Shown: positions 2-26,681 of the stretch, piece by piece | How positions within the stretch are numbered: the stretch's first letter is position 1 | Layout: each line of letters starts with the position of its first letter | Origin: Candidatus Puniceispirillum sp. | GTDB taxonomy: Bacteria > Electryoneota > RPQS01 > DYHQ01 | NCBI GenBank assembly: GCA_020724065.1 | Contig: DYHQ01000010.1 | Span: 1-32,073 of the forward strand | Length of the DNA: 32,073 nucleotides | Direction: 5' to 3' | Translations under genes and position numbers: made by a program | The notes under the pieces: generated by a model | Seen by the model: only the letters and a program-made list of their open reading frames with translations | Told to the model about the DNA's origin: nothing | The model's database searches: none

Positions 2-685
2 GGCACGATTGAAGAAGTGAATCCCACGATTATCCGCCAGGCTATTCCGACTTCGGCGGCACGAAAACTTTGCGACCTGCTCACAGGCGTCGTTGAGAAC
101 GGAACCGCGCAGGCTGCTGCGATCCCAGGCTGGCGCGTTGCAGGGAAAACGGGGACGGCCCAGAAAATAGATCATGCGAAGCACCAATATTACAAAGACC
201 GCTTTATCTCGTCTTTCGTTGGTTTCGTCCCGGCGGACGCTCCCTGCTACTTGATGCTCGTCGTCATGGATGATCCGCGTGGCGACTATTACGGCGGACA
301 GGTCGCCGCGCCCATCTTCCGCGATGCGATGACTCGCATCTTGGAATCCTTCCCTCCCACTCCGACGGAACCGCTCTTTGCCCCAAGCACCGCTCATGCA
401 ATGGAAGATCCCGGAAATCTCAAAGAACCTTCCAGAGAACGGAGCTTATCATCCCAACCTTCTAATATGGATTTGGAGGTCGCTTTCGCTGAAGAGGTCA
501 AGACAGGTTTCATCAGAGTACCGCCAGTCGAGGGTCTTTCGCTGCGGGGCGCCATTCGGGAATTGACCTCTCGCAATCTTGCTTTTGACATCTCGGGAGG
601 CACCGAGATAGTCTACCAGAGTCCATCGGCCGGAAGTTTGGTGCCCGTCGGCACGGTCTGCTACCTCCTTGGTTTGAATGATTAA
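2..685 (+). CDS. ftsI: Penicillin-binding protein transpeptidase C-terminal part (FtsI/SpoVD-like) with C-terminal PASTA domain; 5' truncated by window edge
   Basis: Frame is open from base 2; KTGTAQK (KTG box) in GWRVAGKTGTAQKID, FVGFVPADAPCYLMLVVMDDPRGDYYGGQVAAPIF typical of class B PBPs; C-terminal VPPVEGLSLRGAIREL...VYQSPSAGSLVPVGTVCYL looks like one PASTA repeat; followed by murE. Confidence 0.9.
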   Translation, partial: GTIEEVNPTIIRQAIPTSAARKLCDLLTGVVENGTAQAAAIPGWRVAGKTGTAQKIDHAKHQYYKDRFISSFVGFVPADAPCYLMLVVMDDPRGDYYGGQVAAPIFRDAMTRILESFPPTPTEPLFAPSTAHAMEDPGNLKEPSRERSLSSQPSNMDLEVAFAEEVKTGFIRVPPVEGLSLRGAIRELTSRNLAFDISGGTEIVYQSPSAGSLVPVGTVCYLLGLND

Positions 686-4687: not shown

Positions 4688-6034
4688 ATGTTCTCTCTTG
4701 CCGGTCAGCGAGTGGTGATTATCGGAATGGCGCGCAGCGGAATCGGAGCCGCCAAGCTGGCCAAACGGCTCGGTGGACATGTGCTCGTGAGCGACGAAAA
4801 GCCGAAGGAAGATCTTATGGACGCTGTTTCAGTTCTCGACACGCACCGCATCGCGACGGAAACGGGCAACCACAAACGCGCGATGAACGAAGACTGGGAT
4901 TTGGCCGTGGTGAGCCCGGGCATCCCATCAAACCATGCGCTCCTCCACGATTTCGCACAACGAGCCATCCCCGTTTGGAGCGAACTTGAACTGGCCACTC
5001 GCGCATTAGGTTGCCCGTGGGTGGGAGTCACCGGCTCAAATGGAAAAACGACGACGACGCTCATGACCGCTGCGATCTTTCGCGAAAGCGGTCGGCAAAC
5101 AGAAGTCGCTGGCAACATCGGAATCGCTCTTTCGGAGCTTGCCGTTGACCTTCCCGTGCAGGCCATCGTCGTAGTCGAGGTTTCCAGCTTTCAGCTCGAA
5201 TTCTCTGCCACGGTCAAGCCAGCCGCTGCCGCTTTTCTGAATTTGAGCCCTGACCATCTGGATCGTCACGGAGATTTGAACACTTATATGAATGTGAAGG
5301 CTCGGCTATTTGCCAATCAAACCGTGGATGATGTTTTCGTTGCGAATTTTGACGACCCTTATGTGCGTGACATCGCCCAGCATGGCCGCGCTCAAATCGT
5401 GCCCTTCGGGTTTAATTTGGAGCGCGGGGTGACTCTTCGAGATAGCTGCATTGTCTACCAAAACGGCACCGAATGGCAGAATGTTCTGCCCGCCGCTGAC
5501 CTGCCTCTCCCCGGTCGGCATAATCTTGCGAATGCCATGGCCGCTGTGGGACTCTGTTGCAGTCTGGGCGTGAAACCGGACATCGCAGGAAGAGCGCTGC
5601 GCAAGTTTACTCCGGTGGAACATCGGCTCGAATTTGTGCGTGAACTTCGACAAGTTAAATACTACAACGACTCAAAAGCGACGAATGTTGATGCCACGAT
5701 TACGGCTCTTCAGAGTTTTCAGAATCCGATTCTCCTTATCGCCGGAGGTCGAGGCAAAGGCGGCGATTTTCATGCGCTGATGCCTTACCTGCGCCATGGC
5801 GTCAAAGGCCTCCTCGCTATCGGAGAGACTGCAGTGCAGCTCGAACGAGAATTAGGTGATATTGTGAAAACGCTGCAGGTAGAGTCGCTGCAGCGCGCCA
5901 TTGAAATGGCATGCACTCTTGCGCAGCCAGGTGACATCGTTCTTCTTTCCCCTGCGTGCGCATCGTTCGACCAATTTCGAAATTACGAGGAGCGTGGCCG
6001 AGTTTTCAAAACCTTCGTGAATGAACTGACATGA
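4688..6034 (+). CDS. murD: UDP-N-acetylmuramoylalanine--D-glutamate ligase
   Basis: GVTGSNGKTTTTL, LNLSPDHLDRHG, HRLEFV, YNDSKATNVDAT, LLSPACASFDQFRNYEERG. Confidence 0.96.
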   Translation: MFSLAGQRVVIIGMARSGIGAAKLAKRLGGHVLVSDEKPKEDLMDAVSVLDTHRIATETGNHKRAMNEDWDLAVVSPGIPSNHALLHDFAQRAIPVWSELELATRALGCPWVGVTGSNGKTTTTLMTAAIFRESGRQTEVAGNIGIALSELAVDLPVQAIVVVEVSSFQLEFSATVKPAAAAFLNLSPDHLDRHGDLNTYMNVKARLFANQTVDDVFVANFDDPYVRDIAQHGRAQIVPFGFNLERGVTLRDSCIVYQNGTEWQNVLPAADLPLPGRHNLANAMAAVGLCCSLGVKPDIAGRALRKFTPVEHRLEFVRELRQVKYYNDSKATNVDATITALQSFQNPILLIAGGRGKGGDFHALMPYLRHGVKGLLAIGETAVQLERELGDIVKTLQVESLQRAIEMACTLAQPGDIVLLSPACASFDQFRNYEERGRVFKTFVNELT

Positions 6035-7206
6035 TTCCACATCGTATCATGCAGAGCGAGCGGGAAAACTGTAACGAGGGCAGCGGCGGATTTGACTTGC
6101 CTCTTGTCCTGTTCGTCGGGATTCTGCTCTTTGCCGGTGCGATGCTCGTCATGTCCTCTTCGGCAGCGGTAGCCTGCGCCAAGGAAAACTACACGCTTTC
6201 GATTTTTCTCAAGCATGTGATGCGCATGGGGGCCGGAGTCGGTTTGATGATTGGCCTCACTTTCTATGACTACCATCGCCTTGAGAAGATTGCAACGCCG
6301 CTGATCGTCACGACGCTCGTGCTATTGGTCTTGGTGCTTTTTTGGCCATTGAAGTCGGGTGCAAGCTCTCACCGCCAACTCTTCTTGTGGTCTCTGAATC
6401 TTCAGCCCGCCGAGGTCGCAAAATTCGCGTTTGTTCTCTACTTGGCCTATTATCTCTCATATTGGCGCGTTGATCCTTCTTCAGGTATTGATAAGCATCT
6501 CCTATTGCGCTGCCTCTTGCCGATAGGTTTCGGTATCGGACTGATTCTCTGTGAAACCAATCTTTCAATGGCCGTCATCATTCTTGTCGCCGCATTTGCG
6601 ATGCTCTTCCTGGCTGGAATCTCCATGAAGATTCTTGGGGCAATCATGCTGGCCGCTTCTCCGGTATTGGCATTCGTCGCCTGGGCCATTCCCTACACCC
6701 ACGCTCGATTGGTCGGTTATTGGACGACCCTTCTTGAGCCATCGCAAGCTGGCTTTCACACCCGGCAATCCCTCATTGGTCTGGGAAAAGGAGGAATGTT
6801 TGGACACGGGCCCGGTCAATCCACATGGGCTTACTCGCACCTGCCTATCCCTCACAAGGATTCCATCTTCAGCGTTCTCGGTGAAGAGCTCGGTTTTTTG
6901 GGTTGTGTGGCGCTTCTGGTCATCTTTGCGTTCTTCTTCTGGCGAGGGATGAAAATTGCCAGAAACTCTCCCGACCCATTCGGGTATTACCTTGCTCATG
7001 GAATCCTGCTTGTCATTGCGTGCACATTCTTCATCAATGTGGGAGTGGCGGTCGGCCTTCTCCCTCCCACCGGCCAACCTCTCCCTTTCGTCAGCTACGG
7101 AGGTTCATCGCTGGTCATGTCGCTCGCTGCGGTGGGGATTCTTCTCAACATATCACGCCAAGGCGTATGTTCAAATGATCACACATTGGAGCCATCTTTT
7201 CTGTGA
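6031..7206 (+). CDS. ftsW: Lipid II glycosyltransferase/SEDS protein FtsW
   Basis: Multi-TM SEDS protein; GLGKGGMFGHGPGQS, LPIPHKDSIFSVLGEELGFLG, LPPTGQPLPFVSYGGSSL; overlaps murD by 4 nt. Confidence 0.94.
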   Translation: MIPHRIMQSERENCNEGSGGFDLPLVLFVGILLFAGAMLVMSSSAAVACAKENYTLSIFLKHVMRMGAGVGLMIGLTFYDYHRLEKIATPLIVTTLVLLVLVLFWPLKSGASSHRQLFLWSLNLQPAEVAKFAFVLYLAYYLSYWRVDPSSGIDKHLLLRCLLPIGFGIGLILCETNLSMAVIILVAAFAMLFLAGISMKILGAIMLAASPVLAFVAWAIPYTHARLVGYWTTLLEPSQAGFHTRQSLIGLGKGGMFGHGPGQSTWAYSHLPIPHKDSIFSVLGEELGFLGCVALLVIFAFFFWRGMKIARNSPDPFGYYLAHGILLVIACTFFINVGVAVGLLPPTGQPLPFVSYGGSSLVMSLAAVGILLNISRQGVCSNDHTLEPSFL

Positions 7207-9721: not shown

Positions 9722-10643
9722 GCATTCTCTTCGGCAACTTCTGAGACAGGGCTTCTCTTTTGTACATGAATGGGAACCGCTTGGGCCCTGGACAACCTGG
9801 CGCATCGGCGGACCGGCGCGACTCTTTGCCGAGCCTTGTTCCGAGCAACAACTCCTGTCGCTATTTGAGATAGTCCGTGCTGAGCAGCTACCGTGGTTCT
9901 TCCTCGGGCTTGGTTCCAATGTGCTCGTCTCCGATAGCGGTTTCCCCGGTGTGGTGATACATCCTAAGGGCGAGTTTACGAGAATTGAGGTTCAGAACCA
10001 GACGGTTGCGGCGGGCCCCATGGCACGGCTTCTGGACGTGACTATCCTCGCCGCTCGTCATTCGCTTTCCGGAATGGAAGACCTTTGCGGCATTCCCGGC
10101 AGCATGGGAGGCGGCCTTTATATGAATGCAGGAGCCTTTGGCGGCCAGATTTCGGATACACTTGAGCGCCTTGAATTGCTTGAAGCCGACGGGTCTATTC
10201 AAGTCCTGAGGAGGGCGGACATTGATTTCGGCTACCGCACGGCTCCGCGGCTGCAGAACGGGATTATTCTGCGCAGTTGGCTTTCACTGCAGGACAGAGA
10301 CAAGCGATTGGTATGGACAGCCATGCGGAAAATGTGGCAGCGGCGCCGCGCAAGCCAACCTCTCGGAGTGCCTTCGGCGGGCTCGGTTTTCAAACGCCCA
10401 GCCGGAGACTTCGCAGGCAGGCTCATTGAAAGTGCCGGAGCCAAGGGGCTTCGTATCGGCGGGGCGGCCGTTTCGGAAAAACACGCCAATTTCTTCGTCA
10501 ATATGGGTGGCGCTACCGCGAGCGACATGGCGGCTCTCATCCGTAAAGTACGTCTCCTCGTCTATAAGAAATTCGGTGTACGACTTGAAACCGAGGTGAA
10601 ACCCGTTGGCTTCGCGAAAGATCCGTTCGTCATCGAGGGATGA
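9702..10643 (+). CDS. murB: UDP-N-acetylenolpyruvoylglucosamine reductase
   Basis: TTWRIGGPARLF, LGLGSNVLVSDSGFPGVVI, LCGIPGSMGGGLYMNAGAFG, PSAGSVFKRP, AGAKGLRIGGAAVSEKHANFFVN. Confidence 0.95.
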   Translation: MHEEIREHSLRQLLRQGFSFVHEWEPLGPWTTWRIGGPARLFAEPCSEQQLLSLFEIVRAEQLPWFFLGLGSNVLVSDSGFPGVVIHPKGEFTRIEVQNQTVAAGPMARLLDVTILAARHSLSGMEDLCGIPGSMGGGLYMNAGAFGGQISDTLERLELLEADGSIQVLRRADIDFGYRTAPRLQNGIILRSWLSLQDRDKRLVWTAMRKMWQRRRASQPLGVPSAGSVFKRPAGDFAGRLIESAGAKGLRIGGAAVSEKHANFFVNMGGATASDMAALIRKVRLLVYKKFGVRLETEVKPVGFAKDPFVIEG

Positions 10644-11433
10644 AGGCTCCCATGGTCAGAAGCGGAAATGGCAACGGCGCCTCGCCATCCTTGCGATGGC
10701 AGGGCTGTCATCGCTGCTGTGGGGGCCACCTGCCATCCGATGGGGAAAAGACTCCCTGACAGCCGCTTTTGGCAGCTATCGAGTGCACTCCCTTCGCGTC
10801 CTCGGAGCAAAACATCTTGATACGAGCGAGATTGCGAAGTTGTCCGGCATCGCAGAAGGCACTCCGCTCTTTCGTGTCAATCTCAAGTCGGCTTGCGAGA
10901 AGATTCGTTCACATTCGTGGGTTCGCTCGGCGATCGCGGTGCGCCGTTTTCCCGACACAATCGAACTGCGCATCACGGAACATGAACCCGTTGCCCTAAT
11001 CAATGCGCGTACGGTATGGGCAGTGACATCGGATGGTGTCCTGCTCCCGATGAGGCAATCAAAAAGAGGCTGGGATTTGCCCTTGTTGGGCGCTCGAGAT
11101 TTGCCCTCAGGATCTGGCGGGCATTTGCGCGACACCCTCGCCTGTGCTCTTCTGGCGCAATCGGTCGCCCTTCGGCACTGGACGCCGCGCGTGTGGAAGA
11201 ACCTTTCAGAACTCTTCTGGAGAAATGGCGAGATGTGGGGTGTGCTTCAAGAGGAGAACATCGAGATTCGACTGGGAAAGGGCGTGCAGGAAATCGGCTG
11301 GAAATCGCTGGAGAAACTCCTGATTCAACTCAAGGCTGCAAATAGATTGACTGATATTGAATCCATTGACTTGAGGTTCCATGGTCGCGTCATCGTGCGC
11401 TATAACCAATACGCACAAAGCAACGGAACCTAA
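10606..11433 (+). CDS. ftsQ: Cell division protein FtsQ/DivIB-like (POTRA domain); exact start uncertain
   Basis: Single N-terminal TM segment, POTRA-like YRVHSLRVLGAKHLDTSEIAKLSGIAEGTPLFRVNLKSACEKIRSHSWVRSAIAVRRFPDTIELRITEHEPVAL; position between murB and ftsZ. Confidence 0.88.
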   Translation: MASRKIRSSSRDEGSHGQKRKWQRRLAILAMAGLSSLLWGPPAIRWGKDSLTAAFGSYRVHSLRVLGAKHLDTSEIAKLSGIAEGTPLFRVNLKSACEKIRSHSWVRSAIAVRRFPDTIELRITEHEPVALINARTVWAVTSDGVLLPMRQSKRGWDLPLLGARDLPSGSGGHLRDTLACALLAQSVALRHWTPRVWKNLSELFWRNGEMWGVLQEENIEIRLGKGVQEIGWKSLEKLLIQLKAANRLTDIESIDLRFHGRVIVRYNQYAQSNGT

Positions 11434-11528
11434 TCCTTAGCAAGGCAGATCATCAAGACGAGAATCTTTCGCATTTCATTAGAACATAGAATTGAACTAA
11501 TCTTTCGTGAGGGAAAAGGAGCAGAACC

Positions 11529-12692
11529 ATGAATCGCTTTTCGTATGCAGATGAGCCCGAGAGCAAGCCGTTCCTGAAAGTGGTTGGAATTGGCAATGCC
11601 GGAGGTAACACAGTAAACTGGATGATTCACGAAGGTCTCCAGGGTGTCGAACTCGTCGCCGTCAACACGGATATTCAAGCCCTGGCCACGAGCCGCGCAC
11701 TGTATCGTGTTCAAATCGGCCGGACGGTCACCCAAGGCGGAAGCGCTGGATTTGACCCTGACATTGGCCGCAAAGCCGCTGAAGAAGACCGTGACACAAT
11801 CAGCCAGGCTCTCGACGGAGCTGATATGGTCATCCTTGTCGCGGGCATGGGCCGTGGAACAGGCCAGGGAGCGTCTCCCTTTGTGGCCGCGGTAGCCCGC
11901 GAGCGCCGTGCGCTGACCCTGGCGATCGTTACCAAACCCTTCGCTTTTGAAGGAAAAACACGGATGCAACAGGCAGAAACGGGAATTGAAATTCTGAGAG
12001 ACTGCGTGGATGCGATGATTGTGATTCCCAATCAGCTCCTTATCCGAAACATCGAATCTCAAACCTCTCTTGCCGAGGCCTTTCACCAAGTGGACAATTT
12101 CCTGCTCAAGGCCATCAAGGGCATAACGGATTTGGTCACCGTATCCGGACCGTGGAGTCTCGAAATGGCCGTCTTGCGCAAAGCGCTGACCCAGAAAGGA
12201 TCCATATCGCTGGGAATGGGAGCCGCACGCGGCGACCAGCGTGCCATTCAAGCCACGAAAGAGGCCATATCGTCTCATTTGTTGGAAGATATCTCGCTAC
12301 GCGGAGCCCATAACATCCTGGTGAGTTTCACGGGAGGCCAGGACATGACTTTTCGTGAGATTGACGATGCGACGAGAATTCTCTATGATGCGGCCGGCGA
12401 AAACGCCGACCTGCGTGTCAGCACCGTCGTGGGTCCGACCGTCAGTGAGGACATCTCGGTGACCGTCATCGCCACCGGTCTTAACGGACGCTCTAACTTG
12501 CGTCCCGACCTTCCCAGGGGGGTTACCGTTGACTCTGTTTCGAATGGCCGGAGACCACAGAAACCCTCGAAATACCCTGCGGCTCCTGTGCCTGTGATGG
12601 AAACGGTAAATGGAGAGAAACGACGCGTTGCCGTCGGTGAAGCGGAACTTCCCTTGAGCAATCTGGAAATCCCAGGCTTTTTGAAACAATAA
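11529..12692 (+). CDS. ftsZ: FtsZ-family protein with non-canonical GTP-binding and T7 (catalytic) loops
   Basis: Tubulin/FtsZ scaffold: VVGIGNAGGNTVN, NTDIQAL, IGRKAAEEDRD, GADMVILVAGMGRGTGQGASP, AIVTKPFAFEGKTRM, VIPNQLL, C-terminal LEIPGFLKQ; Shine-Dalgarno AAAAGGAG upstream of ATG. Confidence 0.92.
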   Translation: MNRFSYADEPESKPFLKVVGIGNAGGNTVNWMIHEGLQGVELVAVNTDIQALATSRALYRVQIGRTVTQGGSAGFDPDIGRKAAEEDRDTISQALDGADMVILVAGMGRGTGQGASPFVAAVARERRALTLAIVTKPFAFEGKTRMQQAETGIEILRDCVDAMIVIPNQLLIRNIESQTSLAEAFHQVDNFLLKAIKGITDLVTVSGPWSLEMAVLRKALTQKGSISLGMGAARGDQRAIQATKEAISSHLLEDISLRGAHNILVSFTGGQDMTFREIDDATRILYDAAGENADLRVSTVVGPTVSEDISVTVIATGLNGRSNLRPDLPRGVTVDSVSNGRRPQKPSKYPAAPVPVMETVNGEKRRVAVGEAELPLSNLEIPGFLKQ

Positions 12693-13228: not shown

Positions 13229-15988
13229 ATGAGCCGACGAATTATTCGATGGATGTTTTTTTGCTTTGCCACGCTTCGATTTCTCGCCCCGCTTCATGCC
13301 GGCCTGCGTGATATCCTTCCTCCCCCTCAGCAAATGGGCCTCCTCAGTGATGAACCGATGCAAGTTCAAGGACCTCTCTATCTTATCGTGGCCAATAACC
13401 CGAGCGTTGAAGAAGCGAAAGTCGTGGCGGAAGCGGTGAGGCTTATCGAAAATGGCCTGCGCGTTTCTCCGGTTGTTGTGCCTGAGTCCGGTTATCAAGG
13501 TGAACGCCCGGCTCTTTGGATGGCGACTTCCGAAGAATGGCCTGCTCTCGAAGCGGCCCTCGATTCGGTGGAAATTCCCGCCATGTCCAATATGCCGCCT
13601 CCCGAAGGATACCATCTGTATGTGGAGTCTGACCGAATCCTTCTCTTGGGTCGAGATCTCAACGGACTTCGCTATGGACTTCTGTCGCTCTCGAAACTCA
13701 TGGCGTTCTTTGGCGGGCAGAGGACGATTGATCGAGTCTATATTCGGGATTGGCCGGATTTGCCTCGCCGGATTGTTACTTTCAATACAGCTCTCGAACC
13801 GGCGGGGGATCTGGACAGTCTTCTATCGCGTCTCCGGCTGGCCCACGACTATAAAATGAATGAAGTGGAATGGAACAACACCTACGCCGGCCGCGGCACC
13901 GATTGGAATCCCACTTACCTGTCGCGAGCCATCACCGCACGAGATTCCATCAAGGCCTTGGGGATGAAACTCTACATGTCTGCGGATCGCACAGGGGCGG
14001 TGGTTGATAACATGTGCTGGCAAGAAGGCATCCCGGTCCTTGGGCAGTCATTCGTCATCGCGGGCGACACGGCTCAGGCATCGCCGAATCCGCCACTCAC
14101 CGTCGTCAATCCAGGCTTCGAGGATTTTGTCAACAACCTATTTGTGGGATGGGGAAACAGTCAAGCCGGCTATCCGACGATTTCGCAAGACACGATTCAA
14201 AAACATGGAGGCCGGGGATCTCTCAAACTACAGTGGCCCGGACATCAGCAATCCAAGGTCTACCAATATCTGGCCATCCAGCCGAATCGGCTCTTCCGCC
14301 TCAGTTTCTGGTACAAAACCTCGGGCTACTCAGGACTGATTCGCGTCCTGTTCTTTCGCACCGAATGCAATGACCAGCAAGTCTTCCTTCATTACTTCAG
14401 GCCCTCGGCAACCAGCGAATGGACGCAGGTGAACTTGGAGGTTCACAGCTTGGTGTGCGACACTCTGCTCCTCTATTTCGGTGCGTGGCTGTGGAGCGGA
14501 GGCACCCTCTGGCTCGATGATTTTTCCATGCAGGAGATGAACCCTGCATGGATGCTGAGGCGAGACGATACGCCGCTTGCTGTCTATGAGGAACCCGGAC
14601 ACATTCCGCTGCAAGAGGGCCCGAGTGGCGACTTTGTTATTGAGGAAACCTACTCGCAGAGCTACGGTAACTGTTATGTGCACTACCCTCGAATCCGGCG
14701 CGTGCAAGGAGGACGCCTCGTCAATGGAGATCGGATTTCAATGGATTGGTATTGCGGGTATGCCTACCGAATCACTCCGCAAGAATACCGTCGAACGGTC
14801 TGCTTCAGCTTGCTCGAACCGCTGGCCTACTATCAACAGAAGGTATCGAATTGCGACAGCCTGTTTCATCCTGACGGATTCAAGATTCATATCAATGAAG
14901 TCCCAATTGCCAATTGGGATCCGTCCTGCACTTCCAGCGGGCTCACGCCGGCGGAGCTTCTCGGTTCGTATGTTCGCCAGATGTACAATATCATCCAAGC
15001 TCGGCGACCGGGAGCGCCCGTGCAGGTCTATGGCGATATGTTCGATCCGAACCACAATGCAAGAGACTGTCATTGGGCTGTGAACGGAACCTTGGCCGGT
15101 TCGCTTTCTGAGTTGCAGGGAATCCCTATCGCATTGCTGGGGCTCATCGGAGAGAAGGTTGACAGCAGCCTGAACTACTTCTCTCAACAGGGTTTTCCCT
15201 CGATTGCGGCTCACGGAGGAGGCGGGTTGCAGGTGGGCCTAATCGAGGCGGAGGCAGCTCGACTGCACAAGGGCGGGGGCTGTCAGGGTGCCAGTCTGTA
15301 TTCATGGTATTGGAGCGATTATGACTCTATTCCCGGTTTCGCGAGCATGACATGGAATCTCGGTCCCCACATCCTTCACAAACCGATTGTTTTTGCGGAT
15401 TCCGCCGCCACGGCGCACATCACCGCGGAAATCTATCCAGATCGGCAGCCACCGTACCTTCAAATCAGCCTTACTTTGGCACGCGTACAGTATCGCCTGC
15501 TGCCGGGCGGTTCATGGCAATCGGCGAATCTTGCATCACAAGGTGCTGATGTTTATGCAGCCGATATCAATCTCGCCGCTCCGGGAACCACGGGCATTGA
15601 ATACTATATCGAGGCAAAGGATTCGCGCAATCGCACCCATACTGCCCCCGCCGACGCTCCGTTCAGCACATTTTCTGCAGACTTCCCCAAATATGGCGGA
15701 GAGGAGCGCCTTGAGGCTTTGGAATCCCCCGTAGCCACGATCTCCGTTGCCGATGGACGACCCGTAGTCCGCTGGACGCCCGTAAAAGGCGCGACTTCCT
15801 ATGAAGTTCATACTGGTCCAGAGCCATTCTTTACGCCCAGTCCGTCCACCTTGCGTACGACCATTTCGGCGCCCGGCACGGTCTATGTCGAGATGACCTC
15901 TTTGTCCATGCTGCCGGAGCGCTTCTTCTATCGCATTGTCGCCAAAGACTCTCCCGTGCAAAAAGGCAACGCTTCAAATCCAAGATAG
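13229..15988 (+). CDS. Large secreted glycoside hydrolase-like protein (GH20/GH84-type N-terminal domain, TIM-barrel-like region with CBM-like insertion, C-terminal Fn3-like domain)
   Basis: Signal peptide MSRRIIRWMFFCFATLRFLAPLHA; PLYLIVANNPSVEEAKVVAEAVRLIENGLRVSPVVV...PEGYHLYVESDRILLLGRDLNGLRYGLLSLSKLM resembles the GH20b-type domain; VVNPGFEDFVNNLFVGWGNS...GRGSLKLQW...LRLSFWYKTSG...GGTLWLDDFSMQ resembles CBM4/9; VATISVADGRPVVRWTPVKGATSYEVHTG resembles Fn3. Confidence 0.7.
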   Translation: MSRRIIRWMFFCFATLRFLAPLHAGLRDILPPPQQMGLLSDEPMQVQGPLYLIVANNPSVEEAKVVAEAVRLIENGLRVSPVVVPESGYQGERPALWMATSEEWPALEAALDSVEIPAMSNMPPPEGYHLYVESDRILLLGRDLNGLRYGLLSLSKLMAFFGGQRTIDRVYIRDWPDLPRRIVTFNTALEPAGDLDSLLSRLRLAHDYKMNEVEWNNTYAGRGTDWNPTYLSRAITARDSIKALGMKLYMSADRTGAVVDNMCWQEGIPVLGQSFVIAGDTAQASPNPPLTVVNPGFEDFVNNLFVGWGNSQAGYPTISQDTIQKHGGRGSLKLQWPGHQQSKVYQYLAIQPNRLFRLSFWYKTSGYSGLIRVLFFRTECNDQQVFLHYFRPSATSEWTQVNLEVHSLVCDTLLLYFGAWLWSGGTLWLDDFSMQEMNPAWMLRRDDTPLAVYEEPGHIPLQEGPSGDFVIEETYSQSYGNCYVHYPRIRRVQGGRLVNGDRISMDWYCGYAYRITPQEYRRTVCFSLLEPLAYYQQKVSNCDSLFHPDGFKIHINEVPIANWDPSCTSSGLTPAELLGSYVRQMYNIIQARRPGAPVQVYGDMFDPNHNARDCHWAVNGTLAGSLSELQGIPIALLGLIGEKVDSSLNYFSQQGFPSIAAHGGGGLQVGLIEAEAARLHKGGGCQGASLYSWYWSDYDSIPGFASMTWNLGPHILHKPIVFADSAATAHITAEIYPDRQPPYLQISLTLARVQYRLLPGGSWQSANLASQGADVYAADINLAAPGTTGIEYYIEAKDSRNRTHTAPADAPFSTFSADFPKYGGEERLEALESPVATISVADGRPVVRWTPVKGATSYEVHTGPEPFFTPSPSTLRTTISAPGTVYVEMTSLSMLPERFFYRIVAKDSPVQKGNASNPR

Positions 15989-16081: not shown

Positions 16082-17104
16082 TTACCACTGGCCGAGCAGA
16101 CCGATGAGTCCTACGGCGAATCCCACGAGCAAGTTGATGGCTTTCACGACAACAAATCCTCTTCGAGAATGCGCCAACATCGGCAACATCCCATGACCAT
16201 CCTGAACGATGGAGCTGGCGAGCAGCACACTCAAGGGCACGATTCCCTTGGCATACATGGTCACGAAAATCAAATGAGGACCGGACTCGGGAATAATTCC
16301 AATAAGACAGGCCACGATTAGGACAGCCAACCGACCCTGCTGAATCCACGCTTCCATATCGGCATGCTGAGTCAGAAGCCTGGTGACCACCAATGCCCCC
16401 ATTGTCCAAAGAAAAATCCTCGGAACATGTTTCCGCGCCACATGCCTCCAAAGATGCTCCTCCAAGAAGTGATCCGAAACGGTCGTAACAATGAAAAGTC
16501 CGACAGCCGAGGATACTAACAATGTGATCCTGACCCAATCCTGTTCCGTGGAACCCACCCTTCCCACAAGAAGAGCAAAAAGAAAGAGGCCCAACGCCGC
16601 ACAGAGAGTCCCGCGAGCTAAAGTGCATTGCCTAAGCTGACTCAAAATGCGCGTTCCCGACCAAAAGGCCTCGATCTCCGCTTCATGCACTTCATAGCCC
16701 TCGCATCCCAACGCCTTGAGCGTCCCCGGCTTCTTAACCAGCCTGTCCACCAACCATCCCACGCAGAGGCCCAGCGCGAAGAGAATCGCCGTGATTTTCA
16801 GAGCGGTTCCGGGAAAGAGAGCAAACATGACGAAGGCTTCATCGCCGCTTGAGGCAATCATCGTGGTTACGATCGCGCCAAGAGTCATGATTCCGTGCGC
16901 ATAAAGAGAAACAACGGCGAAGGAACCCAGACATCCGGGCACGGCGCCCAGAAAAGCCCCGAGCAGATATTGGCCGAGGCGCATCCGAGTAAAGGCTTCA
17001 CGCCACTTGCCTGCCGTGAGGACATTGAGGTATTCGATCACGAGCATCATGACGAAAACGAAGCTCGTAATCATCACGCCTTCTTGAAGAACTTCAATGA
17101 CCAT
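16082..17104 (-). CDS. Putative multi-TM heavy-metal/manganese exporter, ArsP_2-like
   Basis: About 10 TM segments; GAFLGAVPGCLGSFAVVSLYAHGIMTLGAIVTTMIASSGDEAFVMFALFPGTALK and GIIPESGPHLIFVTMYAKGIVPLSVLLASSIVQDGHGMLPMLAHSRR. Confidence 0.75.
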   Translation of the reverse strand: MVIEVLQEGVMITSFVFVMMLVIEYLNVLTAGKWREAFTRMRLGQYLLGAFLGAVPGCLGSFAVVSLYAHGIMTLGAIVTTMIASSGDEAFVMFALFPGTALKITAILFALGLCVGWLVDRLVKKPGTLKALGCEGYEVHEAEIEAFWSGTRILSQLRQCTLARGTLCAALGLFLFALLVGRVGSTEQDWVRITLLVSSAVGLFIVTTVSDHFLEEHLWRHVARKHVPRIFLWTMGALVVTRLLTQHADMEAWIQQGRLAVLIVACLIGIIPESGPHLIFVTMYAKGIVPLSVLLASSIVQDGHGMLPMLAHSRRGFVVVKAINLLVGFAVGLIGLLGQW

Positions 17105-17148
17105 CCTTGCCCCCGTGTGGTAAGTTCTTCATAGATGTCATCATCTTC

Positions 17149-17829
17149 TCAGACATTCAAGTAAAGAATGTAAAGACCTGCCAGAGTAATAAAAGCACCG
17201 GAAATTCTTTTCGACCACACCGAGAAATTCATCACTCCTTTGGATTGCACCGCTTTCTCGACAAAACCTGTCGCTATTCCCGCCAGCACAATCAAGGCGC
17301 AGTGCCCGATTGCGTAGACAAAAAGGAGAACAACACCGTAGAGAATTTGGCCTTGGGTCGCTACAAACGCCAGAATAGCTACGAGCACTGGAGTGGCGCA
17401 CGGCGACGAGACGACGCCAAACAGCAAGCCAAGCAGAAAAGCTCCCAGTACTCCCCTGCGTTTGGGCTGAAGTTTCGAAGCAAAGGGAATATTGATGTCG
17501 AAAACACCTAAGAGGGACAGCCCCATAAGCACAGCCACTCCGGCCACAATCCAGTACCAAATGTGTCCTACATCACCCATCATCTGCCCCATCAGAGCCG
17601 CCAGAGCACCCAGAATGGTGAAAGTGATCGCCAATCCCAATGCGAAAAGCAGTGCATAAGTGACAGCGGCTTTCCGGTTTCCGCGCGAGTAGCCGCCGAC
17701 GAAGCCAATGACCGCAGGGATGACGGCTAATACACAGGGCGACGAGGCCGAGAGCAATCCTCCAAGAAACACAGCGAATACGGCGATGGAAGGATTCTGC
17801 TGCAAAACTTGGGCGATGTTGTCAATCAT
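17149..17829 (-). CDS. CcdA/DsbD-type transmembrane thiol transporter (ArsG-like candidate)
   Basis: 6-TM CcdA pattern: GLLSASSPCVLAVIPAVIGF...LGLLFGVVSSPCATPVLVAILAFV with paired SxPC motifs; ATG overlaps the upstream thioredoxin stop. Confidence 0.85.
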   Translation of the reverse strand: MIDNIAQVLQQNPSIAVFAVFLGGLLSASSPCVLAVIPAVIGFVGGYSRGNRKAAVTYALLFALGLAITFTILGALAALMGQMMGDVGHIWYWIVAGVAVLMGLSLLGVFDINIPFASKLQPKRRGVLGAFLLGLLFGVVSSPCATPVLVAILAFVATQGQILYGVVLLFVYAIGHCALIVLAGIATGFVEKAVQSKGVMNFSVWSKRISGAFITLAGLYILYLNV

Positions 17830-18224
17830 CTCACTCCCATGAGCTTCAGTTGAGATTCAATGTCTTCCCTGCCAAGAAATCCTTCATGGCGATAGACTTC
17901 TTTGCCGTTGACATCGAAGAAGATTTGCGTCGGAATCACGCGGATTCCATACCGCCGCCCCGCCGCCTTGTCTTCTTTCACATCAATCACAGTCACCTTG
18001 GCGCGGCCTGCATAGTCTCTTGAAAGCTCGGCGAGTATGGGAGCCATTTCTTTACAGGGCTTGCAGTATTTGCTTCCCAAATCCACTAACTCGGGAAGGC
18101 GAGATGTTGAAGCTGGAGGCTGAGTGCTCGGCAGTTTCAGAGTGGAGCTATTTTTTATGAGAATTATTCCCGCGACGGCAATACCAACCACCAAGAGAAT
18201 CGCGATACGCAACGATTTTCTCAT
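17826..18224 (-). CDS. Membrane-anchored/secreted thioredoxin-family protein
   Basis: N-terminal hydrophobic segment LRIAILLVVGIAVAGIILI, DLGSKYCKPCKEMAPILAELSRDY (CxxC), GIRVIPTQIFFD cis-Pro; MRKSLRIAIL start at 18224 preferred over the longer track ORF. Confidence 0.88.
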   Translation of the reverse strand: MRKSLRIAILLVVGIAVAGIILIKNSSTLKLPSTQPPASTSRLPELVDLGSKYCKPCKEMAPILAELSRDYAGRAKVTVIDVKEDKAAGRRYGIRVIPTQIFFDVNGKEVYRHEGFLGREDIESQLKLMGVR

Positions 18225-18247
18225 TCGTGTCTTTCTATTTCGTCTAT

Positions 18248-18284
18248 TCGCCGTCGAGCGTCTCCAGACCCACGATGGCGCCAT
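18248..18284 (-). repeat. Dispersed intergenic repeat, copy A
   Basis: Minus-strand ATGGCGCCATCGTGGGTCTGGAGACGCTCGACGGCGA matches + strand 26608-26644 at 32/37 positions, including 16 identical leading bases. Confidence 0.7.
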
Positions 18285-18341
18285 TGCAGCTCTGGAGAGC
18301 CACAACGGCGTATACCGAACATGGCCCCAATGAAAGCGGGG

Positions 18342-18590
18342 CTATGATTCCGTTAACCACTGCTTGACTTGTTCTCGCGAGGGGATCTTTCCGCTGCATT
18401 TCACCACGCCATCAATGACCACTCCGGGAGTCATCAAAACGCCGCGTTGAGCAATCAGGCTCGGCTCCTTGACCTTGGTCACGGCATAATCTTGGCCATC
18501 TCGGAGGCCAAGTTCGGTTGCAGCCTGCTGCACAATCGCATAGGTCTTCTCGCACCGGGAACAACCCGGACCCAGAACCTCGATAATCAT
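18342..18590 (-). CDS. Small thioredoxin-like redox-active disulfide protein
   Basis: MIIEVLGPGCSRCEKTYAIVQQAATELG...GVLMTPGVVIDGVVKCSGKIPSREQVKQWL; CxxC and cis-Pro; start at 18590 overlaps the preceding stop (ATGA). Confidence 0.88.
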   Translation of the reverse strand: MIIEVLGPGCSRCEKTYAIVQQAATELGLRDGQDYAVTKVKEPSLIAQRGVLMTPGVVIDGVVKCSGKIPSREQVKQWLTES

Positions 18591-19027
18591 TGTGATTCTC
18601 CTTTTTGCAGAAGCCGATGAATATCGTTCACTGTGATATCCCACTCCTGTCGGCCTCGTTCTCGTCCGGTTCGGTCGAGAAGCATCAAAACCGGCACCTC
18701 CCACACAGCGACAGAATCGGCTGCCAGCGTATCTGAATAGACATCTACAGTTTGATAGACGAAAGTGGAATTGCACTTCTGAATAGAATCACATAGAGCC
18801 AACGCTGCTTCGCACCGCGCCATGGTGCAACTGCAGGCAACCGACGCAAAATACAACCGGAAATACTGCTCATCCTGAAACTCGCGGTATTTTCCTTTCG
18901 CAGCCACTCCCTTCTCATTCTGATTGATACCTGTCTCGGCCTTGCCGCACCCGCACAGTAAGCTCAGAGACGCAAGAAGCAGAATCCAGCGGAAACCGAT
19001 ACACCCGTTACCCATAAAACGCTCCAA
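18587..19027 (-). CDS. Cys-rich lipoprotein, thioredoxin-like (ArsF-like candidate); start may be 19015
   Basis: Lipobox-like LLASLSLLCGC; YFASVACSCTMARCEAALALCDSIQKC; VWEVPVLMLLDRTG resembles a cis-Pro loop; position between permease and small thioredoxin. Confidence 0.6.
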   Translation of the reverse strand: MERFMGNGCIGFRWILLLASLSLLCGCGKAETGINQNEKGVAAKGKYREFQDEQYFRLYFASVACSCTMARCEAALALCDSIQKCNSTFVYQTVDVYSDTLAADSVAVWEVPVLMLLDRTGRERGRQEWDITVNDIHRLLQKGESQ

Positions 19028-20135
19028 AGATCATACCCACGATTGTTGACAACACGACGACCAGTACCACATATACAAATGTGCGGGCAAGGCCCATCAC
19101 TCGACAGAGAACTATCATACTGGGCAAGGAAAGAGACGGACCTGCAAGGAGCAATGCCAACACCGGTCCCTTGCCCATGCCCAAATCCATCAAAGCGCGT
19201 ACAATCGGCACCTCGGTCAAGGTCGAAAAATACATGAAGGCACCGAAAAGGGAGGCCAACAGATTACTACCGAGAGAATTGCCCCCGGCCCAGCGCTGAA
19301 TGGCGGATTCAGGCAGCAGCGCCTTGACCGCACCCGCAATGAACACTCCCACAAGCAGAATCGGGAAGATTTTCTTGAAAAGCCCCCAAGTCTCCCTCAT
19401 CCAATCCGCCACTTCGGAGCGCGAGTACCATCGAGCGACCATGTAGATGGTCAGGCCGAGGAGAACCAGCGCAGTCGCACCCGGCAGCCACTTTCCCGCG
19501 AATGTCACAAATAGTCTGTCATCCGGATTCCCAAAAGCTACATGGATAACGAATCCCATTGCTGATGCAGAAATTAGAAGTCCCACCATCGTGGCGAAAT
19601 AGATGCCCACTTGCCAGAGAGGATACCGCTTCTGTTCTGAAGAAAGAGGCCAATCTCCTTGCTCAGCATGAACCTTCTGCTCCGAGTGTCGAAACAAGAA
19701 AGCCATCGCGAGGCCGAGGACAATCGAAAAGGCGATGGCTCCCACGGCGCGCGCTGCGCCGATATCTAATCCCAATAGTCGCGCCGAGTACACAATGGCC
19801 AAAACATTGATTGCGGGGCCCGAATAGAGAAACGCTATCGCAGGCCCCAGCCCTGCGCCGCGCTGGCGAATGCCAGCGAAAAGAGGCAATATCGTGCAAG
19901 AACAGACGGCCAGAATCGCACCAGAGACCGAAGCAACTCCATAGGCCAACAGCTTGTTCGCGCGTACGCCAAAATACTTCAGTACGGCTTCCTTGCCGAC
20001 AAATACGGCAATCGCTCCGGCGATAAAAAATGCCGGTATCAGGCAGGTCAATACATGAGCCGACAGATATTCGAGAAGAGCCCTGAGGCCACTTTGAAGA
20101 ATTTCAACCATGACAGAAATCAACTCACCATACAC
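19008..20135 (-). CDS. ArsP_1/YraQ-type permease
   Basis: AVCSCTILPLFAGIRQRGAGLGPAIAFLYSGPAINVLAI and LTEVPIVRALMDLGMGKGPVLALLLAGPSLSLPSMIVL; multi-TM. Confidence 0.88.
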   Translation of the reverse strand: MYGELISVMVEILQSGLRALLEYLSAHVLTCLIPAFFIAGAIAVFVGKEAVLKYFGVRANKLLAYGVASVSGAILAVCSCTILPLFAGIRQRGAGLGPAIAFLYSGPAINVLAIVYSARLLGLDIGAARAVGAIAFSIVLGLAMAFLFRHSEQKVHAEQGDWPLSSEQKRYPLWQVGIYFATMVGLLISASAMGFVIHVAFGNPDDRLFVTFAGKWLPGATALVLLGLTIYMVARWYSRSEVADWMRETWGLFKKIFPILLVGVFIAGAVKALLPESAIQRWAGGNSLGSNLLASLFGAFMYFSTLTEVPIVRALMDLGMGKGPVLALLLAGPSLSLPSMIVLCRVMGLARTFVYVVLVVVLSTIVGMIFGAFYG

Positions 20136-20156
20136 AAAACTACCAAGCAGGCATTG

Positions 20157-20480
20157 TCACAACGACGCTCTAATATCATGGGCTCTCTCTTGAACAGACG
20201 ATAGCAATATCTCATCAATGAGTCCCAGAACTTTGAACACTCGCGGTTCCTTAATCCAGTAGTATATTGAGACACCTTCTTTGCGACATCCCAAAATTCC
20301 TGCATCCCGCATCTTCACCAAATGCCGACTGATGACCGATGGATCTTCCCTCATCATCGGATTGATTTCGCACGCACACCGCTCACCGTCTCTCAAGAAA
20401 TACAGAATCTTCAATCGGGTAGGCTGCGCAAGCACTTCAAGGAGTTGAGCCTCCAATTCGACCTTTTTCAGTTTAATCAT
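20157..20480 (-). CDS. arsR: ArsR-family transcriptional regulator
   Basis: LLEVLAQPTRLKILYFLRDGERCACEINPMMREDPSVISRHLVKMRDAGILGCRKEGVSIYYWI; CxC metal site in ERCACEI; winged HTH. Confidence 0.93.
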   Translation of the reverse strand: MIKLKKVELEAQLLEVLAQPTRLKILYFLRDGERCACEINPMMREDPSVISRHLVKMRDAGILGCRKEGVSIYYWIKEPRVFKVLGLIDEILLSSVQERAHDIRASL

Positions 20481-20489
20481 GAGGCTATT

Positions 20490-21542
20490 TCAAGCGAATT
20501 TCTTCTGTAACTTCAGGGCCACATGGACGAGGCTGATGAGAACCGGCACCTCGACCAGAGGACCGATCACCGCGGCGAATGCTGCGCCCGAATGCACGCC
20601 AAAGAGGGCAATCGCCACGGCAATTGCCAACTCAAAATTATTCGAAGCGGCGGTGAACGCGAGCGTTGCTGTCTTCGAATAGCCGGCACCGATCTTTTTT
20701 CCCATCGCAAATGACACGAAAAACATCAGTACGAAGTATAGAAGCAAAGGGATGGCAACTCGGACCACATTCAAGGGTAGCGTCAGAATTTTGTCCCCTT
20801 TCAGCGAAAACATCACGATGATGGTGAAGAGCAGCGCAATCAGTGTGATGGGGCTGATTTTCGGGATGAACTTTCGGTGGTACCACTCTTTGTTTTTCAC
20901 ACGGACAAGAACAAACCGCGTCAGAAAACCTGCGATGAATGGAATGCCAAGATAGACAAACACGCTTTTGGCAATCTGCCCGATGGTGACAGGCACTGCG
21001 CTTCCCACCAGACCGAAGAGCGGTGGAAGCACTGTGATGAAAACATAGGCATAGACGGAGTAGAACAGCACCTGAAAGATCGAGTTGAACGCGACAAGAC
21101 CCGCCGCGTATTCTGTATCACCGTGCGCCAGTTCGTTCCACACAATCACCATCGCAATGCAGCGCGCCAGCCCAATCAGAATCAAGCCAGTCATGTACTC
21201 CGGATAATCTCGCAGAAAGATTAGAGCCAGCGCGAACATGAGAATGGGCCCAATGACCCAATTCTGAAGGAGCGACAATCCAAGAATGCGCCAATTGCGG
21301 AACACTTCACCCAGTTCCTCATAGCGCACCTTTGCCAGAGGCGGATACATCATGAGGATCAAGCCGATGGCGATAGGAATGGAAGTCGTGCCAACGCTGA
21401 AGCGGTTGAGGAATGGAACCACACCCGGCATGGAATAGCCCAATAGCACACCTATAGCCATGGCGAGGAAGATCCACAAGGTCAAGAACTTATCCAATAT
21501 GGAAAGAGTTTTCCTTGGTCTAATGGCTACTTCATCGTTCAT
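20490..21542 (-). CDS. acr3: ACR3-family arsenite efflux transporter
   Basis: [100 protein letters not shown]. Confidence 0.94.
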
Positions 21543-22109: not shown

Positions 22110-23594
<1,485 letters not shown>

Positions 23595-24356
23595 TTATGC
23601 CGAGAGTGGTCCAAGGCGTTTCAGAATCTGGTCTCGCAATGCTTCCTGTCCGCGCGTCCAACGATGATCCAGAGTCAACCGGAAAATATCTCTCACCTCT
23701 TGTGTCAAACAATCGAGATGCTTCTCGACAAACGAAAAGACAAGGCCGCGCTGCTTTTTGCCGACGGTGCGCAGAGCGAAAACCAAATTGCGGCGAACAT
23801 AGTCGCTGTCATCCAACAGCAAGGGTTCCAAGAGAGAAAGCAAGCGCGGCCCGATTTCAGGATGTCGCAAAAAATAGCCCAGCAGTGCATTCGTCGTTGC
23901 CCGTCGCACGCGATAGTCCGCATCCCGAACCCACTGGCTCAACACCTCGAAACAGTAATCGAGATGGAAAGCCGCCAATCCTTCAAACTCACCGTGCGTA
24001 TCGAAGATATGGGCTGCATACTCCCGCACCTCCCAATTCTCATCGGCGGCCAGGTGGCGAGCAAGGTCCATCCAGGACGCTGGGTTGTAGCGCGCCAGTC
24101 GGGACAGAAGCACGCACGCCAGAGCACGCGTTGCCGGAAGTGATGAGCCGACCATACGCAGCACGATTTCAATGGCTGCAGCGGGCTCTTTTTCCAGAAT
24201 CGCCCCGACTTCATCTCCTAATTGCAGAAGCGGATGGAAGGGGTAGAGCTTCAACTCGCGAAGAAAGGGGTCCAACTCCTGCGCGACATCGAACGATGTG
24301 CTCCCATCCTTCGTGAGCCGACGAAAGAGCGCGACGACATCCTCAGTCGGGGTCAT
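23595..24356 (-). CDS. HEAT-repeat protein (AlkD/AlkC-like alpha-helical repeat)
   Basis: Repeats of WEVREYAAHIFDTH, YRVRRATTNALLGYFLRHPE, YVRRNLVFALRTVGKKQ; 4-nt overlap with upstream NYN gene. Confidence 0.7.
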   Translation of the reverse strand: MTPTEDVVALFRRLTKDGSTSFDVAQELDPFLRELKLYPFHPLLQLGDEVGAILEKEPAAAIEIVLRMVGSSLPATRALACVLLSRLARYNPASWMDLARHLAADENWEVREYAAHIFDTHGEFEGLAAFHLDYCFEVLSQWVRDADYRVRRATTNALLGYFLRHPEIGPRLLSLLEPLLLDDSDYVRRNLVFALRTVGKKQRGLVFSFVEKHLDCLTQEVRDIFRLTLDHRWTRGQEALRDQILKRLGPLSA

Positions 24357-24937
24357 AAGTCATCATGAAACGGGCCAGCCGTGCCATTTCCGAACTCGCG
24401 AGGCCGTTCGGTGCGCTCGATAAGGCTTCGCAGATCCTGCAAATCAATGTAGTGAGAGCCGACCGCCATGCGCAGCTCGGAGGCAATCCAGTTTTGAGTC
24501 GAAACGACACAGATGCGCTTACCGCGAGAACGCAAGAGTTCGAGGGCGCGTTCAAAATCGCCGTCCCCGGACAGCAGAATCGCCTTGTCATAATTCTCCA
24601 CGGTATTAAACATGTCCATGACGATTTCGATATCGAGGTTCGCCTTCTGAATGGTTTCGCCGGTTTCCGGGTCGAAAATCGTCTTCAGATGCTTCGTTCG
24701 CACCGTGTAGCCCGCATACGCTAAGAATCTCAGGAAATTCTCGTCCCGCGCCTCGGGGGCCGATTTGACTCCCATATACCAGAACGCATCGGCCAATTCG
24801 TCGTCGCCCTTCAGTGTCCTGAGGAGTTTCGCCGGGTCGAAAAACCACCCGAGCCCCTTTTTCTGCGTATAGAACATATTGGCGCCGTCAACAAAAATGG
24901 AGACGCGCAGCACTCGATTGTTCATCCCGGTACTCAC
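24353..24937 (-). CDS. NYN-domain (LabA/DUF88-type) putative nuclease
   Basis: VSIFVDGANMFY, KANLDIEIVMDMF, AILLSGDGDFERALELLRSRGKRICVVS: conserved acidic residues of the PIN-like NYN fold. Confidence 0.9.
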   Translation of the reverse strand: MSTGMNNRVLRVSIFVDGANMFYTQKKGLGWFFDPAKLLRTLKGDDELADAFWYMGVKSAPEARDENFLRFLAYAGYTVRTKHLKTIFDPETGETIQKANLDIEIVMDMFNTVENYDKAILLSGDGDFERALELLRSRGKRICVVSTQNWIASELRMAVGSHYIDLQDLRSLIERTERPREFGNGTAGPFHDDL

Positions 24938-24961
24938 TCTTTAGTCCATGAGGGAGCGAAT

Positions 24962-25819
24962 CTACTTCAATCCCTCGGCGCCCGACACGACTTCAAGCAA
25001 TTCCTTCGTGATAGCCGCCTGTCGAGCCTTGTTATAATGCAGTGTCAGAGTATCAATCAATTCAGCGGCATTCTCCGTCGCGTTTTCCATGGCAGTCATG
25101 CGCGCTCCCATTTCGGCGGCATAGGACTCTAGGAGCACTCGCCACAGTTGCACATTGACATACCGAGGAAGAATGGCATTCAGAATTTGCGAAACGGATG
25201 GCTCGTATATAAAATCCGAACGACTCTCGCCGACTTCAAATTCATCCGGCACAATCGGCAGAAGTTGCTCACAAATGACATATTGTTGAACCGCCGATTT
25301 GAATTCATTATACACCAGATAGACTCGATCCATCCCATGCTGTTCATAGCGACCGATGATAATCTCGCCCAGTTTCATTGCATGGCCAAAATTCAACTCG
25401 TTGAAGAAATTGGAGAGAGATGAAAGGATCCGTGCATCACGGCGAGTGAAAAACTCCGTTCCTTTCCTGCCCACCGTGATCAGGAAGAGTTCCGATTGCC
25501 CCTCTTCCTGCATGATCCTCTGCGCCTGCCGAACGATGTTCGTATTGAAGCTGCCGCACAATCCTCGATCTCCCGTGACCACAACGATGCCGACACTGCG
25601 AGCGGGGCGCATGTCGAGCAGAGGATGGAGGCTGCGGTCCGTGCGCGCCGCCAGATCTCGAATCACCTGACGCAGCTTCAGAGAATACGGTCTGGCTTTG
25701 ACGATATTCTCCTGCGCGCGCCGCAAGCGTGCGGCCGCCACCATTTTCATCGCCCGAGTAATCTGCTGTGTGGATTGAACCGAGGCAATGCGGCGCCGGA
25801 TTTGCTTCAGAGATGGCAT
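24962..25819 (-). CDS. atpG: F1Fo ATP synthase gamma subunit
   Basis: MPSLKQIRRRIASVQSTQQITRAMKMVAAARLRRAQ, VTGDRGLCGSFNTNI, RMTAMENATENAAELIDTLTLHYNKARQAAITKELLEVVSGAEGL. Confidence 0.97.
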   Translation of the reverse strand: MPSLKQIRRRIASVQSTQQITRAMKMVAAARLRRAQENIVKARPYSLKLRQVIRDLAARTDRSLHPLLDMRPARSVGIVVVTGDRGLCGSFNTNIVRQAQRIMQEEGQSELFLITVGRKGTEFFTRRDARILSSLSNFFNELNFGHAMKLGEIIIGRYEQHGMDRVYLVYNEFKSAVQQYVICEQLLPIVPDEFEVGESRSDFIYEPSVSQILNAILPRYVNVQLWRVLLESYAAEMGARMTAMENATENAAELIDTLTLHYNKARQAAITKELLEVVSGAEGLK

Positions 25820-25876
25820 TCCCGCTTCAATCCATGCAGTCCGCTAACATTTCGCTTGCATTTCTTATGGTCATCG

Positions 25877-26578
25877 TCAGGTCGGAATCACCTCGATAGG
25901 GCCAATCTGCAATTCTGCCCCTTGACCATGCAGGGGCTGACCGACGCGCTCAAGAGTCAATAACGCCAAACCCAGATGCATCTGGTCTATTTTCGCAGGA
26001 ACACGGCGCACAGCATAGAAGAGCCTCCTATCCAGCCAGAAACCCATCTTGTCAATACTCCGCTCATATTGAAGCGTGTATCTGTGATGCTCGCCCGGCG
26101 CCAATCTATCCCACGCTTCCGCTATGGCAGCAAAGACTTCCGCTTCGGATGCGCCGACCCGCAGAGCCATCCGCACGCAGAGTGCGCCTGCAAGCGTTCC
26201 GTTGGATACCGCTCCAAAAGCAGTAGCGCTGCGCATATCGCAGAGAAAAAATCCCGCCATCGCATCACGCAACACAAAGGGGTCGTTGTCCTGGCAGCGA
26301 ACTGCAAATTCAACTTCCAAAGTCAGCACCCCACTTTCCGGCACAGCGATGGGCTCTTTGCTGATTACCAAATGTTTGAAATCATCGAAAGGAGAAGCGT
26401 CCGCCTTGCGAGTGAACGGATTGACTCGCAGAATCAGCGTCTTCTCTCCAAAATCCATTTCAGCTCCAGGCTCCTCAAAACGCCAATGGCCTTCCGGCCC
26501 CGGACTCTCGAAAATCGCCCACTTGTCGCTCTGAAGCTCTTCCGCCGACCAATCTTCAAATATCATAGGCAAATCCAC
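25877..26578 (-). CDS. Conserved hypothetical protein, DUF6081-like (concanavalin-like beta fold suspected)
   Basis: FEDWSAEELQSDKWAIFESPGPEGHWRFEE...RVNPFTRKADASPFDDFKHLVISKEPIAVP...GEHHRYTLQYERSIDKMGFWLDRRLFYAVRRVP resembles DUF6081 by eye; start may be 26566. Confidence 0.5.
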   Translation of the reverse strand: MDLPMIFEDWSAEELQSDKWAIFESPGPEGHWRFEEPGAEMDFGEKTLILRVNPFTRKADASPFDDFKHLVISKEPIAVPESGVLTLEVEFAVRCQDNDPFVLRDAMAGFFLCDMRSATAFGAVSNGTLAGALCVRMALRVGASEAEVFAAIAEAWDRLAPGEHHRYTLQYERSIDKMGFWLDRRLFYAVRRVPAKIDQMHLGLALLTLERVGQPLHGQGAELQIGPIEVIPT

Positions 26579-26607
26579 GGTTTAGAATCGCTATCGTCGT
26601 TTCTATC

Positions 26608-26644
26608 ATGGCGCCATCGTGGGCATGGAGACCCGCGACGGGGA
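26608..26644 (+). repeat. Dispersed intergenic repeat, copy B
   Basis: ATGGCGCCATCGTGGGCATGGAGACCCGCGACGGGGA, 32/37 identical to minus-strand 18248-18284; lies in the gap between atpA and the DUF6081-like gene. Confidence 0.7.
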
Positions 26645-26681
26645 GCCGACCTTCAGGGATAAGACACAAGGACTCTCTTCC

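Follow-up and report, generated by a model that had tools for sequence, protein, structure and literature searches.

A dcw-encoded FtsZ that has lost its T7 catalytic loop in a lineage that has also lost ftsA

The ftsZ locus

The window, a stretch of 32,073 nucleotides, is one contig (C34) of a MAG of 2.33 Mb in 168 contigs that is 88.7% complete and 0.6% contaminated. It carries a dcw cluster in the order PBP-murE-murF-mraY-murD-ftsW-murG-murC-murB-ftsQ-ftsZ (Table 1). The last open reading frame (ORF) of this series is FtsZ by a curated model (TIGR00065; 324.1 bits, against a cutoff of 295.2) and contains the domains Tubulin (PF00091) and FtsZ_C (PF12327), both above the Pfam cutoff. Its closest match is the FtsZ of G001 (CSMAG_2917, L032), which is the closest genome that we compared and belongs to the same family but a different genus; this sister FtsZ is canonical and shares 56% identity with the window protein. 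Both flanks of ftsZ are syntenic with G001, with ftsQ before the gene and a GH20-like protein after it. The initial annotation had called the ORF an FtsZ encoded in the dcw cluster, and the curated model, the domains, and the synteny confirm this. A CetZ, TubZ, or FtsZ-like (Tubulin_2) paralog was rejected, as the Pfam and NCBIfam matches were only to Tubulin, FtsZ_C, and ftsZ. We ignored an antisense ORF at 11430-12278, since a similar mechanical antisense frame is found in the sister gene.

Table 1. Features of the dcw cluster and of ftsZ in the window
Feature	Position	Strand	Remarks
Penicillin-binding protein of the dcw cluster (FtsI/SpoVD type), C-terminal part	17..685	+	Cut by contig end
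ftsW	6031..7206	+	Rate similar to sister
ftsQ, POTRA domain	10606..11433	+	Rate similar to sister
ftsQ-ftsZ gap, 95 bp	11434..11528	+	Position of ftsA in relatives; no detectable ftsA remnant
AAGGAG ribosome-binding site	11516-11521	+	7 bases before ftsZ start
ftsZ, 387 aa	11529..12692	+	T7 catalytic loop lost; ortholog by position and descent
T1 nucleotide loop GIGNAGGN	11589..11612	+	E. coli G20 to N; remainder normal for relatives
G-box GMGRGTGQGAS	11844..11876	+	G106R, T110Q, A113S; G103, G105, G107, T108, G109, G111 kept
T7 segment SLEMAVL, replacing NLDFADV	12156..12176	+	N207S, D209E, F210M, D212V, V213L
C-terminal tail ending LEIPGFLKQ	12594..12689	+	18/30 residues conserved with sister genus

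The gene downstream of ftsZ (13229-15988) encodes a 919-aa protein with a weak match to GH20 domain 2. It occupies the same place in the sister (L032, 7695-10487), and no such protein was seen near ftsZ in five outgroups of the order. Farther along, on the minus strand, positions 16082-21542 hold an arsenic-handling-like block (two ArsP-type permeases, a DsbD-like protein, a thioredoxin, an ArsR regulator, and an SBF-family, Acr3-like transporter), and positions 22110-30478 hold F1Fo ATP synthase genes (a, delta, alpha, gamma, and beta) broken up by DUF6081, NYN-domain, and HEAT-repeat proteins.

The T7 loop and the nucleotide-binding side

The GTPase site of an FtsZ subunit is complete only with the T7 loop of its neighbor. 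We compared the motifs of the window FtsZ with those of 89 aligned FtsZ sequences, which were drawn from whole-genome collections and include that of E. coli, and use E. coli numbering here. The catalytic motif NxDFxD is absent from the window protein, which reads SLEMAV at this site within the longer context GPWSLEMAVL. Of the 89 sequences, 100% have N207, D209, and F210, 99% have D212, and 98% have V213; the window FtsZ differs at every one of these five positions, with S, E, M, V, and L, respectively. The D209E change is conservative, whereas N207S and D212V are not. The reported replacement of the T7 Asn and both Asp residues by S, E, and V was therefore correct, and each of the motifs listed in the initial annotation (GIGNAGGN, NTDIQAL, GMGRGTGQGAS, TKPFAFEGKTRM, SLEMAVL, and IPGFLKQ) is present where it had been placed. 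The window protein is an FtsZ by descent but, judged by the defining catalytic motif, not an FtsZ GTPase. We found no description in the open-access literature of a bacterial FtsZ with natural T7 loss in an otherwise normal dcw cluster. Another FtsZ of the comparison, L019 (from G026), is changed around its motifs (GMGKGTGTGASP and GDWNLDFRDV) and keeps N207, D209, and D212.

On the nucleotide side, the G-box GGGTGTG reads GRGTGQG, and the other contact residues are kept. Those retained are N24, N43, T44, D45, G103, G105, G107, T108, G109, T132, E138, R142, and N165, as well as Q47, while the residues that changed are conserved at 100% (G20), 98% (G106), and 97% (T110) among the 89 sequences. 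The canonical G-box had been described as lost. Three of 13 residues are indeed substituted, but the description is overstated, because most nucleotide-contact residues are intact, as is G105, the ftsZ84 position. Furthermore, two other FtsZs with a canonical T7 loop (L019 and L060) naturally carry G106K, and we therefore played down G-box loss as a main cause. The first glycine loop had likewise been listed as altered; only G20N is unusual there, because GVGGAGGN is normal among relatives.

Lineage-specific change, loss of ftsA, and signs of selection

The T7 substitutions are specific to this lineage: G001 keeps a fully canonical FtsZ, relatives have the canonical NxDF (with D212 in 99%), and the altered state is known from one genome only. 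We performed relative-rate tests with G001 as the sister and five genomes of the same order (G002-G006) as outgroups. The maximum-likelihood (ML) branch of FtsZ was 0.805 in the window lineage and 0.145 in the sister, that is, 5.6 times longer, and Tajima's test between the two gave a P value of 7e-9. Among FtsZ sites invariant in the outgroups, 56 were changed only in the window lineage and 7 only in the sister. The branch ratios of PBP, MurE, MurF, MraY, MurD, FtsW, MurG, MurC, MurB, and FtsQ ranged from 0.7 to 1.4 with no significant difference, and the rate of MreB was equal in the two lineages. FtsZ is the sole dcw protein, among those tested, that has sped up in the window lineage. Since ten dcw proteins are clock-like and MreB evolves equally, a generally high rate or error load can be discounted for both the genome and the contig. 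The earlier idea of a divergent lineage narrows to a single genus-level branch, as the sister genome is canonical.

The initial annotation had overlooked a further change adjoining ftsZ. G001 has ftsA between ftsQ and ftsZ, and in the relatives of the order in which both genes are readable, it is directly upstream of ftsZ. In the window lineage, this locus is contiguous and syntenic, and ftsA is cleanly missing from it. No match to FtsA passing 1e-30 was found in the window's assembly, an 88.7%-complete MAG; one of two weaker FtsA-type matches proved to be MreB, with MreC following it, and the other PilM, both names resting on sequence and neighboring genes and not on a family scan. We searched 39 genomes of the phylum, 37 of which encode FtsZ, and among these 37, FtsA was lacking only in the window's genome and in G009, where a contig end cuts the gene short. 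Neither FtsZ nor FtsA was found in the assemblies of G008 and G024 (80% and 91% complete); this absence is probably due to a missing dcw contig, with true loss possible. SepF is absent from the whole order, and none was found in the window's assembly; at 88.7% completeness, this assembly yielded neither membrane tether gene, FtsA or SepF.

The window FtsZ nevertheless appears to be still under selection, with its fold and C-terminal partner-binding peptide kept. The ftsZ frame is open, an outcome seen in 2 of 200 runs when neutral decay of the sister gene was simulated to 75% identity, and differences from the sister gene amount to 0.32, 0.24, and 0.61 at the three codon positions, highest at the third. 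Of the residues invariant in the order, 117/167 are kept: 2/9 in the T7 loop, 31/51 in the C-terminal domain, 34/45 and 23/27 in the N-terminal parts, and 5/6 in the C-tail. Losses are concentrated in the T7 loop (7 of 9 sites, versus 43 of 158 elsewhere; Fisher P = 0.003). The C-tail is most like that of the sister. Since neither FtsA nor SepF is detectable in the genome, the retained C-terminal peptide suggests a different partner. An AlphaFold2 model has an intact FtsZ fold with a pLDDT of 85.8, although the model was built on an alignment of canonical relatives and leans towards the canonical fold. Foldseek matched it to B. subtilis and S. aureus FtsZ, including crystals of S. aureus T7-loop mutants with GDP or GTP, which makes nucleotide binding without hydrolysis physically plausible. 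We predict that the window FtsZ folds, and GTP binding is probable.

ZapA, FtsX, DivIC/FtsB, FtsQ, FtsW, and MreB are all present in the assembly. MinC is uninformative because it is weak or absent across the order, the sister included. For ZapA, the ML branches (0.323, versus 0.086 in the sister) conflict with Tajima's test (P = 0.79). The E. coli FtsZ residues that contact ZapA are N73, K141, E219, and R258 (PMC12754632). These are N, K, E, and R in the sister and are all changed in the window FtsZ; that ZapA is kept while its contact positions have changed fits better with a canonical FtsZ elsewhere in the genome.

A proposed GTPase-deficient scaffold and alternative explanations

In S. aureus FtsZ, the residue that positions the catalytic water is D210 (E. 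coli D209), and N208L, D210N, or D213N is enough on its own to suppress assembly (PMC8936486). E. coli FtsZ D212G forms static rings in vitro (PMC7320174), and another report cites it as functioning in E. coli division (PMC4383033). With N207, F210, D212, and V213 lost and D209 replaced by Glu, the window FtsZ should be without useful GTP hydrolysis and would consequently not treadmill, and its assembly may be weak at most. The proposal of a slow or GTPase-dead FtsZ is well supported as far as it rests on the T7 loop and the S. aureus single mutants, but weak as far as it rests on the G-box, since the nucleotide pocket is mostly kept. Our best reading of the sequence is that the window FtsZ would be a real, selected, GTPase-deficient protein that arose in the same lineage as the loss of FtsA.

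As an explanation of the whole, we tentatively favor a vertically inherited dcw FtsZ that serves as the sole, GTPase-deficient scaffold in a cell that has lost FtsA, although we consider it slightly less probable than an even chance. After the split from the sister genus, the dcw FtsZ lost the T7 residues with which it completes a neighboring subunit's GTPase site, and in the same lineage, before or after this change, ftsA was removed from its place downstream of ftsQ. The most likely role of FtsZ would then be that of a static or weakly assembling scaffold, and the divisome would no longer rely on an FtsA-anchored, GTP-driven FtsZ. Septal wall synthesis by FtsQB and FtsW/PBP might be placed by other factors, for which ZapA, FtsEX, and MreB are candidates. 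The fuller claim, that a peptidoglycan-walled bacterium divides with a single non-hydrolyzing FtsZ and without FtsA or SepF, using it as a non-treadmilling static scaffold attached by its tail to another partner, is possible but doubtful; loss of three T7 residues might abolish assembly altogether.

The likelihoods that we attach to the favored explanation and to its rivals are judgements and not computed values. Because the evidence comes from a single MAG that is 88.7% complete, a canonical ftsA-ftsZ pair in the unassembled part of the genome is a serious rival, which we regard as rather unlikely yet substantial. The hidden pair would run division, and the dcw copy would be a GTPase-dead regulator, a capping or dynamics-damping subunit whose GTP-bound, well-kept top face joins a filament end while its altered T7 loop and bottom face block further addition. 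Incoming monomers have been proposed to join filaments via the GTP-bound top face (PMC8936486), and the losses in the window FtsZ are indeed concentrated in the T7 loop and C-terminal domain, with the GTP face better kept. About 11% of the genome is missing; ZapA, FtsX, FtsB, FtsQ, and FtsW are present, with no significant acceleration of FtsQ, FtsW, or (by Tajima's test) ZapA; and retention of ZapA alongside loss of the ZapA-contact positions counts for a second FtsZ and against a sole scaffold. The search for a second FtsZ that the initial annotation had proposed found none in the 88.7%-complete assembly, nor was FtsA found there; every other FtsZ-bearing genome of the phylum also has FtsA, save for the one gene cut by a contig end, and relocation of both genes would be unusual in itself. 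The sole-scaffold explanation, for its part, has to accept that the altered state comes from one incomplete genome from which a second ftsA-ftsZ could be missing and that the conservative D209E change might leave some activity.

This residual activity is central to another reading, which we think quite improbable, in which the protein is still an active GTPase of altered chemistry, with E209 as the catalytic acid and a different membrane tether replacing FtsA. Glu at this position retains a carboxylate, the residues E138, R142, N43-T44-D45, and Q47 are kept, and Candidatus Thiosymbion oneisti offers an example of naturally low GTPase activity in an FtsZ (PMC8953583), albeit one with conserved catalytic residues. 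However, the losses extend to N207 and D212, the equivalent single mutants of S. aureus FtsZ each suppress assembly, and the order has no SepF. Somewhat less improbable, but still unlikely, is that FtsZ is a decaying relic drifting to loss while division follows another route, for example one led by MreB, as proposed for Chlamydia. The strong acceleration of FtsZ, the loss of ftsA, the presence of a normal MreB, and the existence of FtsZ-less bacteria (PMC4164004) are compatible with decay; the open frame, the ribosome-binding site, the 117/167 order-invariant residues and C-tail that are kept, and the clustering of lost sites in T7 instead of an even spread argue against it. An assembly or binning artifact, such as a chimeric contig or an error-ridden sequence, we rejected as barely credible. 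The MAG is fragmented and no other genome shows the state, but both flanks are syntenic with the sister, the closest match is the sister FtsZ, the C-tail is sister-like, and the dozens of changes are in frame and often multibase, with T7 codons that differ from the sister at many bases. The initial annotation had allowed that canonical relatives together with a sequencing or assembly error would overturn it; the relatives are canonical, but the open frame and the 56 versus 7 changed sites speak against error.

Among known systems, bacterial FtsZ (TIGR00065), as represented by the G001 copy, is the closest in locus, domains, predicted fold, most nucleotide-pocket residues, and C-terminal peptide; the window FtsZ differs from it in the loss of the T7 loop, a five- to sixfold faster branch, and the lack of an ftsA partner gene. 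The nearest natural precedent for an FtsZ with no recognizable T7 loop is that of Nitrosopumilus maritimus, which lacks both the GTP-binding motif and the T7 loop, does not polymerize, and belongs to an archaeon thought to divide by Cdv (PMC3684127). In contrast, the window FtsZ does not combine the two losses, as its GTP motif is mostly kept, and its host has a bacterial dcw cluster. The E. coli laboratory mutants D212G and D212A, which have little GTPase activity and form static filaments (PMC7320174, PMC4383033), share the loss of D212; they are single engineered changes in the presence of FtsA, whereas the window FtsZ is changed at N207, D209, and D212 alike, in the absence of FtsA. The low GTPase activity of Ca. 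Thiosymbion oneisti FtsZ is likewise natural (PMC8953583), but its catalytic residues are conserved, unlike those of the window FtsZ. The FtsZ-less Planctomycetes and Chlamydiae (PMC4164004) illustrate how division might eventually dispense with FtsZ dynamics, although they lack ftsZ altogether and the window retains an intact ORF with a kept tail.

Whether septation needs GTP hydrolysis and treadmilling by FtsZ is debated, and the evidence comes largely from model species carrying point mutations. A natural experiment on this need is offered by a lineage that has lost both the catalytic loop and the FtsA anchor, next to a sister genus in which the two are intact. If a hidden canonical pair exists, the window would instead encode, within the dcw cluster, a bacterial FtsZ turned filament regulator. 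As a separate observation, the genomes G016, G021, and G027 encode extra, distant FtsZ-like proteins (E values of about 2e-4 to 1e-11) beside a canonical FtsZ.
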